Source: Kiritimatiellia bacterium
GTDB taxonomy: Bacteria > Verrucomicrobiota > Kiritimatiellia > RFP12 > UBA1067
Direction of reading: 5' to 3'
Assembly (NCBI GenBank): GCA_024405395.1
Contig: JAKSOW010000025.1
Span: forward strand, 1 to 33,889
Length of the DNA: 33,889 nt
A model generated the notes under the pieces. It was not told where the DNA came from. It ran no database searches and saw only the letters and a program-made list of their open reading frames with translations. Positions 2,358 through 24,683 of the stretch are shown in pieces; the first letter of the stretch is position 1; each line of letters starts with the position of its first letter. Both the position numbers and the translations under genes were made by a program.

Positions 2358-2390
2358 GCGTCACACTGGCGTCACCTTGACGTCAGGTGT
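2358..2390 (+). repeat. Three tandem 11-bp repeats after bioB
   Basis: Units are GCGTCACACTG (2358-2368), GCGTCACCTTG (2369-2379) and the weaker ACGTCAGGTGT (2380-2390). Read on the other strand they become CAGTGTGACGC, CAAGGTGACGC and ACACCTGACGT. That is the same family as the AATGTGACGC units at 24032-24064, in the opposite orientation. The period equals about one helical turn. The function is unknown. The association with 22-bp iterons occurs in both places. Confidence 0.75.
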
Positions 2391-2436
2391 CTTAGTCGGT
2401 GGATTTATAGGAACTAGGGCGTAGGCAGGGGCATTT

Positions 2437-2546
2437 TAGACCATAGGGACTTTCATTTTAGACCATAGGCAAAAGGTTTCTAGACCATTGGGATTTTTAT
2501 TCTAGACCATAGGAGCATCACGTCTAGACCAATGGAGCAGAAAGGA
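2437..2546 (+). repeat. Five iterons at exact 22-bp spacing
   Basis: TAGACCAT begins at 2437, 2459, 2481 and 2503, and TAGACCAA begins at 2525. The spacing is 22 bp every time. The conserved core is about TAGACCATAGG and the other half of each unit varies. A constant two-turn period places all cores on one face of the helix, as expected for a protein-binding array. The last unit includes the ribosome-binding site of the winged-helix gene that starts at 2554. Candidates are operator sites for that gene, replication-type iterons, or the repeated terminal sites of an IS21-like element. On the opposite strand the core reads GGTCTAAAA, related to GGTCTCAAAA in the array at 23927. Confidence 0.85.
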
Positions 2547-2553
2547 TGGGTGC

Positions 2554-2814
2554 ATGAGGCGGGCAAAAGTACCTAATGAGGTAGTTCATAAGATGGTGTG
2601 GGAGTCCTTGTGCAGACGCATGGACCCTGAGACGCATCGGGTTCGTCCGTCTTGGATTGCGTTGATGCGTGAAGTCGGCGTTTGCCGCCAGCGCATTGCA
2701 AACGCCATCCGCGACTTGAAGGCGGAGGGGCGGATAGATGTCGTCATGGTCCCTCGAACAGGGAAAGACGCTAAAACCTCTGATTATCTCTATGAGGTTA
2801 AAATGCGCAAGTAG
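2554..2814 (+). CDS. Small winged-helix DNA-binding protein
   Basis: An 86-residue basic protein. Residues from about 30 to 65 (VRPSWIALMREVGVCRQRIA, then an NAIRDLKAEGRIDVV segment) have the pattern of a GntR/MarR-like winged helix: a helix, a turn, a recognition helix with RQRIANAI, and a beta wing ending in DVVMVP. The ATG at 2554 has AAAGGA at 2541-2546. The gene sits directly behind five 22-bp iterons, and the final iteron overlaps its translation start. This suggests an autoregulator or a protein that binds the array, but that is inference from position. I cannot name a family. Base composition is lower in GC than the bio genes, and the surroundings (IS remnant, hipBA) are accessory. 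Confidence 0.7.
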   Translation: MRRAKVPNEVVHKMVWESLCRRMDPETHRVRPSWIALMREVGVCRQRIANAIRDLKAEGRIDVVMVPRTGKDAKTSDYLYEVKMRK

Positions 2815-2922
2815 CAATTGCCGCAAGCGGAAAAGCTCTCTCGGCGGATTGTTTCGCGCCAAAGCCGCAGAAAGTCGTGCACGCGGGGTATCATCCATGT
2901 CAATTTGCTTTATATGTATATT

Positions 2923-2949
2923 GTGTCATATATCTGCAAATTATGACAC
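2923..2949. repeat. Perfect 8-bp inverted repeat at transposase remnant end
   Basis: GTGTCATA (2923-2930) and TATGACAC (2942-2949) are exact reverse complements around an 11-nt spacer. The right arm overlaps the stop codon of the minus-strand transposase remnant. It resembles the inverted repeat at 24705-24731 (TTGTCATTA/TAATGACAA). It could be a hairpin at the transposase mRNA end or an operator. No U-tract follows on either strand. Confidence 0.5.
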
Positions 2950-3225
2950 TATCATCCCATAGAGGCGCAGGGTCTCCACAATGTCCAGGTCCATCCACAC
3001 CGCCGAGCGCACGATCCCGACAAGGCGCGAGAACGCCTTGTTCCACCCGGAGAGGAACTTGAGCTAGTGCAGCAGGAGCGTCGGCTTGAGTTCCTTGAAG
3101 AACACCTCGATTTCCCATCTCGCCCTGTAGAGTTCGCGCACCGTGCCTGCCTCACATTTCGTGTTGTTCGCCAGGAAGGTCATCTCCCGCCCCTCACCGT
3201 CGACCTCGACGGTTGTGCGGGCGTG
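2941..3225 (-). pseudogene. IS4-family (YREK) transposase remnant
   Basis: On the minus strand, in one frame, the region reads ARTTVEVDGEGREMTFLANN, then ELYRARWEIEVFFKELK, KPTLLLH, a TAG stop (complement of 3064-3066), and a final segment FLSGWNKAFSRLVGIVRSA...ETLRLYGMIVS with its stop at 2941-2943. The middle segment contains the exact IS4-family spacing Y-2-R-3-E-6-K, where E is the third catalytic acidic residue of the DDE triad. In related transposases a stretch of roughly 30-40 residues separates the YREK helix from the C-terminal part, so an internal deletion is likely in addition to the stop. The N-terminal two thirds are absent. At about 3222-3225 the sequence switches to a copy of the bioB 5' end. 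The remnant cannot be functional. Confidence 0.8.
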
Positions 3226-23926: not shown

Positions 23927-24014
23927 GGTCTCAAAATTCCCCTCCTTAGGTCTCATAATTCCCTCGCATGGGTCTCAAAAATCCCCTCTAAGGGTCTCAA
24001 AATTCCCCCGCCCA
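23927..24014 (+). repeat. Four iterons at exact 22-bp spacing
   Basis: GGTCTC begins at 23927, 23949, 23971 and 23993. Consensus of the first 16 bases is GGTCTCAAAATTCCCC, followed by 6 variable bases. The spacing equals that of the array at 2437-2546, whose core on the opposite strand is GGTCTAAAA. The array begins 45 nt after the phosphatase stop and is followed at 24021 by 11-bp repeats. Confidence 0.85.
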
Positions 24015-24020
24015 AGGCAA

Positions 24021-24086
24021 TCCTGTGTCACGAATGTGACGCCAATGTGACGCGAATGTGACACTTATGCGGCACTTATGCGGCAC
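24021..24086 (+). repeat. 11-bp tandem repeats after the iterons
   Basis: Units in perfect 11-bp register: TCCTGTGTCAC (24021), GAATGTGACGC (24032), CAATGTGACGC (24043), GAATGTGACAC (24054), TTATGCGGCAC (24065) and TTATGCGGCAC (24076-24086). The central units are the reverse complement of the family found at 2358-2390. Each unit spans one helical turn, half the period of the adjacent iterons. Confidence 0.8.
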
Positions 24087-24189
24087 TTGCAAAATGGATA
24101 ATTGAAATTTCGAGATGATTATCCAAAAGAGATGGAATATAGGCGCTGTCGCTAGTTGAGGATAGGGAAGGTCTGATTTTTTGTCCTGT

Positions 24190-24420: not shown

Positions 24421-24505
24421 GCACTCAAAATTCCCTGAACTAGGTTTCAAAAATCCTCTCCAAGAGTCACATAATTCTCCTCGTCCAGGGTAGTCCTGTG
24501 ACGCC
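24421..24505 (+). repeat. Degenerate third iteron array
   Basis: Units start at 24421 (GCACTCAAAATTCCC), 24443 (GGTTTCAAAAATCC) and 24465 (AGTCACATAATTCTCC), again 22 bp apart. They are followed by TCCTGTGACGCC at 24494-24505, corresponding to the start of the 11-bp block at 24021. It is a decayed duplicate of 23927-24053 with several units missing. Confidence 0.7.
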
Positions 24506-24557: not shown

Positions 24558-24564
24558 ACCAGAG

Positions 24565-24683
24565 TTTTAAGTACTGTGTTCTAAGTTCTAAGTTCTGAGC
24601 TCTAAGTTCTAAGTTCTAAGTTCTAAGTTCTGCGCTCTGTGTTCTAAGTTCTGTGTTCTAAGTTCTGTGTTCTAAGTTCTGTG
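24565..24683 (+). repeat. Seventeen tandem heptamers
   Basis: 119 bp made of 17 units of 7 bp with no insertion or deletion. Most units are TTCTAAG or TTCTGTG, with variants TTTTAAG, TACTGTG, TTCTGAG, CTCTAAG, TTCTGCG and CTCTGTG. In the second half TTCTAAG and TTCTGTG alternate regularly. The array lies between a good promoter (24529-24557) and the small gene cluster. Seven bases is not a multiple of three and no ORF crosses the array, so it is not a protein repeat. Confidence 0.9.

Follow-up and report, generated by a model that had tools for sequence, protein, structure and literature searches.

A tandem array of 22-bp repeats running into 11-bp repeats in the genome of a rumen Kiritimatiellae bacterium raises the question of what such an array is for and which proteins would recognise it. 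The array lies within a stretch of 33,889 nucleotides (the window) that corresponds to contig C168 of a 4.04 Mb draft assembly, 84% complete.

Repeat arrays of the window and their dispersed relatives

The initial annotation had described four iterons at exactly 22 bp followed by five to six 11-bp units, and both elements were confirmed when the periodicity of the locus was compared with that of dinucleotide shuffles (2000 per lag). The iterons start at 23927, 23949, 23971 and 23993 and share the core GGTCTCA(A/T)AA(T/A)TCCC, with a lag-22 match of 46/66, whereas the shuffles gave on average 17.3 and at most 29. The 11-mers that follow are six, i.e. TGTGTCACGAA at 24024, TGTGACGCCAA at 24035, TGTGACGCGAA at 24046, TGTGACACTTA at 24057, TGCGGCACTTA at 24068 and TGCGGCACTTG at 24079, drifting along the run from the TGTGACGC type to the TGCGGCAC type, and their lag-11 match (Table 1) compares with a shuffle mean of 12.8 and a maximum of 26. 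When the whole window was scanned, 23927-24089 ranked first for both lags, and the first array of the window ranked second for lag 22. As annotated initially, this first array is inverted relative to the second one and is accompanied by TGACGC 11-mers, which by themselves give a lag-11 match of only 21/44.

Table 1. Position of the repeats and of the associated gene in the window
Feature	Position	Strand	Basis
Five 22-bp iterons TTYTAGACCA (TGGTCTARAA on the minus strand), class ii	2434..2531	-	sequence
Three TGACGC-type 11-mers adjoining the class ii array	about 2358..2390	-	weak by themselves
86-aa winged-helix protein, class ii, no AT-hook	2554..2814	+	alignments A1 and A2
Four 22-bp iterons, core GGTCTCAWAAWTCCC, variable 7-bp spacers	23927..24007	+	shuffles 0/2000; core entropy
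Junction around CCCAAGGCAATCC, between iterons and 11-mers	24009..24023	+	common to most copies in the genome
Six tandem 11-mers, TGTGACGCSAA to TGCGGCACTTR	24024..24089	+	lag-11 38/44, shuffles 0/2000
AT-rich inverted repeat TGGATAAT-N15-ATTATCCA, 3' of the 11-mers	24095..24125	.	read from sequence
Decayed second copy: mutated iterons at 24421, 24443 and 24465, GTCCTGTGACGCC remnant	24421..24504	+	sequence

The AT-rich inverted repeat overlaps the lowest-GC 50 bp near the array (26% GC), and a similar sequence follows several other copies; a low-GC stretch is found near most arrays, its position not being constant. No significant hairpin is predicted for the 11-mers of the window (z -1.3), and a structured-RNA reading of the array was dropped because an Rfam search of the window gave no match. 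Two features had not been noticed in the initial annotation, the small winged-helix gene beside the first array and the decayed copy, which is an iteron plus 11-mer unit located 494 bp downstream of the intact one in the same orientation. The window copy contains no helicase gene. Further downstream, at 24563-24680, a 7-bp repeat (AGTTCTA/AGTTCTG) occurs about 17 times, just after a TTGACA-17-TACCAT promoter-like site and upstream of three small ORFs with no clear family match.

Pattern searches of the genome, which miss diverged arrays, revealed 12 intact GGTCTC 22-mer arrays and a decayed one. Most of them comprise four units, after which come 11-mers of the same orientation, and an 11-bp periodicity was significant 3' of 9/12 arrays tested. 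Over the 43 iterons of the genome, the mean entropy was 0.21 bits in the 15-bp core and 1.45 bits in the 7-bp spacer, and homologous iterons at different loci were 92% identical in the core and 58% identical in the spacer. This difference in identity indicates that the copies are old, and the cores of the predicted binding sites appear nevertheless to have been maintained. Selection is the simple reading of this conservation, and homogenisation between copies is a possible alternative. According to gene calls based on open reading frames only, the solo arrays are located mostly after genes and not in promoters.

The linkage of 22-bp and 11-bp repeats proposed in the initial annotation held in this genome for 9/12 GGTCTC arrays and for 5/6 arrays of a second family, GGTACC, described below. 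In other genomes, represented by fragmented metagenomic assemblies, it mostly failed: the 22-mers there are mostly devoid of 11-mers, their constant partner being a winged-helix gene, so that the 11-mers were rejected as universal partners of the 22-mers outside this genome.

Several arrays showed additional repeats. In a gene-less subfamily of genomes G078 and G026 (L132, L134, L141, L148 and L150), another pair with 22-bp spacing, CCCTAATCGTAGG, is found within a conserved 5' flank. At L056, the GGTCTC iterons are directly preceded on their upstream side by four further 22-bp units of other sequence (TCATGGAGCG...). At L057 (genome G027), a long inverted 9-mer array (GTGAGACTG/GTGTGACGA) comes directly after the 22-mers, on the minus strand from 5750; at L097 this position is occupied by a 12-mer array. 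An ORF that resembles, by eye, a REP-associated tyrosine transposase lies about 1.6 kb downstream of the array at L016.

A small winged-helix protein as candidate binder of the 22-bp iterons

The 86-aa protein encoded beside the first array of the window is a candidate binder of that array, and the same linkage of gene and array is found in genomes G069 and G079. With a profile built from three such small proteins, 13 genomes of the family were found to encode strong relatives; 17/18 intact genes of this first set had a 22-bp array within about 120 bp, and the exception (L103) has a decayed iteron pair 20 bp apart. When GTDB contigs were scanned independently with an alignment of eight rows, six further intact genes were obtained from five more genomes, and each of these genes (6/6) had an array directly downstream (0/300 shuffles each). 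A small winged-helix gene (83-109 aa) adjoins a 22-bp array, therefore, in 23/24 intact loci from 18 genomes, including contig C70 of the present genome (locus L013, gene at 2737-3015). When the protein and the arrays were scored in 95 genomes, both were present in 13, the protein alone in none, the arrays alone in one and neither in 81 (Fisher 4e-15, a value that overstates independence because the genomes are related). The carriers that bear names are rumen and gut Kiritimatiellae, Verrucomicrobia and Lentisphaerae assemblies.

The type of iteron follows the recognition helix of the adjoining protein. GGTCTCA iterons go with an STI(S/A)R helix (6/6), GGCTCA iterons with an (S/A)S(I/V/L)KR helix (14/14), GGTTCA iterons with an SSLRR helix (1/1), and the TGGTCTAAAA iterons, as in the first locus of the window, with a CRQRIA(N/D) helix in proteins that lack the AT-hook (3/3). 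Genome G027 encodes two protein types (L055 and L095) and contains both matching iteron types. When the iteron labels were placed on a tree of the 24 proteins, three changes were sufficient, which is the minimum possible (mean of 9.2 for shuffled labels). These results are in agreement with the initial annotation in that the arrays form a family with cognate putative binding proteins. The evidence for co-inheritance of site and protein is strong, and that for their co-evolution, also proposed there, is only suggestive because there are few independent switches.

The structure model of the small protein is a winged helix (pLDDT of about 91-93 over the domain) that resembles many DNA-binding domains, among them those of CRP, repressors and the centromere protein AspA. 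Phage replication-initiation proteins make up most of the PHROG families that were matched by the largest numbers of members (11, 9, 8 and 7 of the 18 members). These matches are weak (E about 1e-3) and fall on one common domain; the 'O-like' phrog_391 was matched by 7/18 members with a best E of 0.0013.

The arrays might be operators of a small accessory or selfish winged-helix protein that regulates itself or its neighbours, or that organises or segregates DNA, without any role in replication, the helicase and 11-mers described below being chance neighbours. The winged-helix gene is indeed the only constant partner of the arrays across genera, the iterons are on the 3' side of the gene in 20/24 loci, with its stop codon inside the first iteron at several of them, and the resemblance of the model to repressors and AspA points the same way. 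In contrast, the solo arrays are mostly outside promoters, and the patchy presence (13/95 genomes) does not fit a core chromosome organiser. We regard this plain operator or organiser array as possible, if somewhat doubtful, and as the main rival of the reading preferred below.

At L110 (1417-2655), the AT-hook/winged-helix domain is fused to a long, unknown domain in a protein of 413 aa, and no 22-bp array accompanies this strong relative, in contrast to all the others. At L119, L121, L123, L127 and L129, the last codons of an MmeI-type single-chain restriction-modification gene overlap the start of the winged-helix gene, which is followed by the 22-bp array; these loci occur in several copies per genome, and the winged-helix gene is partly deleted in some of them.

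Helicase genes, 11-bp repeats and a second repeat family

At C70 the gene order is helicase, 11-mers, 22-mers and winged-helix gene. This is the only GGTCTC locus with both genes, and remnants of both were found at L015. The C70 helicase matched the PHROG 'DNA primase' with an E of 2.6e-55, and a paralogue passed the DUF3987 cut-off. A distinct 11-bp array comes after the stop codon of each of the helicase genes at C70, C135 and C207 (p <= 0.003), and the arrays of the paralogues C135 and C207 have unrelated sequences (TTCGCATTNNG; GGAATTCCCCG). Such arrays come directly after the helicase homologues L033 and L035 as well, several other homologues being negative. The 11-mer arrays of C70 and C135 are inverted repeats with strong predicted single-strand hairpins (z -10.4 and -5.3). 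The structure model of the helicase was poor (pLDDT 64.5), with a C terminus that looks like a winged helix in this low-confidence model, and a Foldseek search with it gave nothing under an E of 0.001. No helicase match at all was obtained in genome G027.

The same genome contains a second 22-bp family, the palindromic CGGGTACCCGA (GGTACC arrays), which is unrelated in sequence to the first one and comprises six arrays. At C135, the CGGGTACCCGA iterons lie between the 11-mers and an HU-DNA_bdg gene, with the helicase at the same founder locus. This general plan predicted that solo CGGGTACCCGA arrays should exist elsewhere in the genome, and a search found them at C208, C238, C244, C267 and C275, with TTCGC 11-mers beside 4/5 of them. 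Each family has one founder locus in which a DUF3987-type helicase gene is beside the 11-mers and a DNA-binding-protein gene is beside the 22-mers, and the non-founder copies of both families lack the helicase and binding-protein genes. Therefore, two unrelated sets of sequences follow one architecture and both are dispersed, which bears out the earlier proposal that the architecture is conserved more than the sequence. The occurrence of helicase, 11-mers, 22-mers and binding protein in two unrelated families of one genome argues against the 11-mers and helicase being mere neighbours of an operator array.

A non-coding stretch of about 600 bp is common to L152 (2800-3700), L153 (3980-4880) and L155 (in reverse). 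It contains inverted TTCGC 11-mers, six CGGGTACCCGA 22-mers, CCCTACAGTCGGC repeats 22 bp apart and two ATTCGTGCGCACGAAT palindromes, and ATTCGTGCGCACGAAT is also present beside the C207 helicase (L029).

A proposed origin-like module and its alternatives

We propose that the arrays are iteron-type, origin-like sites of replicon-derived modules that spread as orphan copies, and we assign to this reading a probability of about 0.46, slightly less than one half. The array would be a multi-site binding platform in which the 22-bp repeats, two helical turns apart, may be bound in a row by the small winged-helix protein, which usually has an AT-hook and whose gene adjoins one or a few of the arrays in each genome. 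The sites of the DUF3987-type initiator helicase would be the 11-bp repeats, which are spaced by one helical turn and come immediately after the end of the helicase gene in the founder locus. Helicase, 11-mer iterons, 22-mer iterons and initiator-like protein would together make up the origin region of a small mobile replicon-type module, whose copies would spread in trans, and the window copy would be one of about a dozen gene-less orphans in intergenic DNA that have kept their cores.

This arrangement resembles a helicase-bound origin combined with O-type A-tract iterons at a small winged-helix gene, by analogy with two known systems. In SaPI Rep and SCCmec Cch2, an initiator helicase has iterons after its gene, and in the case of SaPI Rep it is the C-terminal domain that recognises these iterons, located immediately after the gene (PMC7581432). 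Short iterons directly downstream of a helicase gene are likewise found at C70, C135, C207, L033 and L035. A winged-helix-like C terminus of the present helicase is suggested by the low-confidence model. Unlike in those systems, the helicase is of the phage-primase/DUF3987 type, a set of 22-bp iterons with a small protein of its own is also present, and many copies are gene-less and chromosomal. Lambda O binds four A-tract iterons of the origin inside the O gene (PMC7466680), and here also about four A-tract iterons lie in a row, within or next to the gene for the winged-helix protein that is presumed to bind them (23/24 loci). The present iterons differ in being asymmetric 22-bp direct repeats with a protein of about 90 aa and many dispersed copies, and a P-like loader was not found.

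Several observations were counted against the origin reading, i.e. the single GGTCTC locus with both genes, the scarcity of 11-mers in other genomes, the poor helicase model, the weak PHROG matches, the lack of a hairpin in the window array, the inconstant low-GC position and the absence of a helicase from G027. No origin activity, extrachromosomal form or excision was seen. Searches of IMG/VR, INPHARED and PLSDB revealed no relative of the small protein or of the iteron pair, and residence in a phage or plasmid was rejected on that ground.

The initial annotation had pointed instead to the ends of IS21-family elements, and this part of its interpretation was not supported, in contrast to the family with cognate proteins. 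The arrays would then be subterminal transposase sites of IS21 or another transposon, now mostly solo or MITE-like, in agreement with their multi-copy dispersal, with the existence of internally deleted relatives (L058, L127 and L129) and with the multiple repeats, L1/L2 and R1/R2, carried by IS21 ends (PMC10122671), which are protein-binding sites as the present repeats are predicted to be. Nevertheless, the search for IS21 genes, which covered IstB, gave nothing above the cut-off in the 84%-complete assembly (a control search was positive in 13/14 genomes), and no inverted array pairs enclosing genes or terminal inverted repeat pairs were found, the arrays at 23927 and 24421 facing the same way with no gene between them. 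Moreover, the linked protein consists of a winged helix alone and is too small (about 90 aa) to accommodate a catalytic domain. No target-site duplication was recognisable in the aligned borders of near-identical copies from other genomes, which are ragged and have no empty-site reference; an empty-site comparison with a genome of the same genus failed because the two are too diverged. We consider such transposon ends very improbable.

Dispersed REP repeats are also intergenic and multi-copy, with a cognate protein, RAYT, encoded at one or a few loci, as is the case for the present arrays. REP repeats are single hairpins and RAYT is a tyrosine transposase, unlike the tandem 22-bp direct repeats and the winged-helix protein described here.

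The orphan arrays could also be kept by the host as decoys against related replicons that enter the cell, whose initiators they would titrate or handcuff. Lambda iterons in trans, together with the oop transcript, block lambda replication (PMC3349717), and the drift of the spacers around conserved core sites would suit such a role, as would the location of some arrays or protein genes beside restriction-modification genes, including the MmeI-type gene that overlaps the winged-helix start codon. However, no matching invader was present in the phage, plasmid or IMG/VR collections and arrays are also found beside ordinary genes, which makes this kind of immunity improbable.

A wider, speculative and rather unlikely extension of the origin-like module is that the arrays represent a new class of mobile DNA, chromosomal and non-autonomous, that would spread through recognition by a replication initiator, not by a transposase. 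Such a class would consist of gene-less orphan iteron origins, with several unrelated families per genome, each having its own initiator-like protein, and with the helicase cassette serving in trans. No prior description of such arrays was found in the collection of literature searched.

The recognition helix of the small proteins predicts their site, and the family offers therefore a natural series of protein-DNA specificities. If the origin reading is true, an origin module is able to multiply along a chromosome in the form of repeats without genes, in a gut lineage with almost no genetics, and this would offer short repeats a route of dispersal that needs no transposase.
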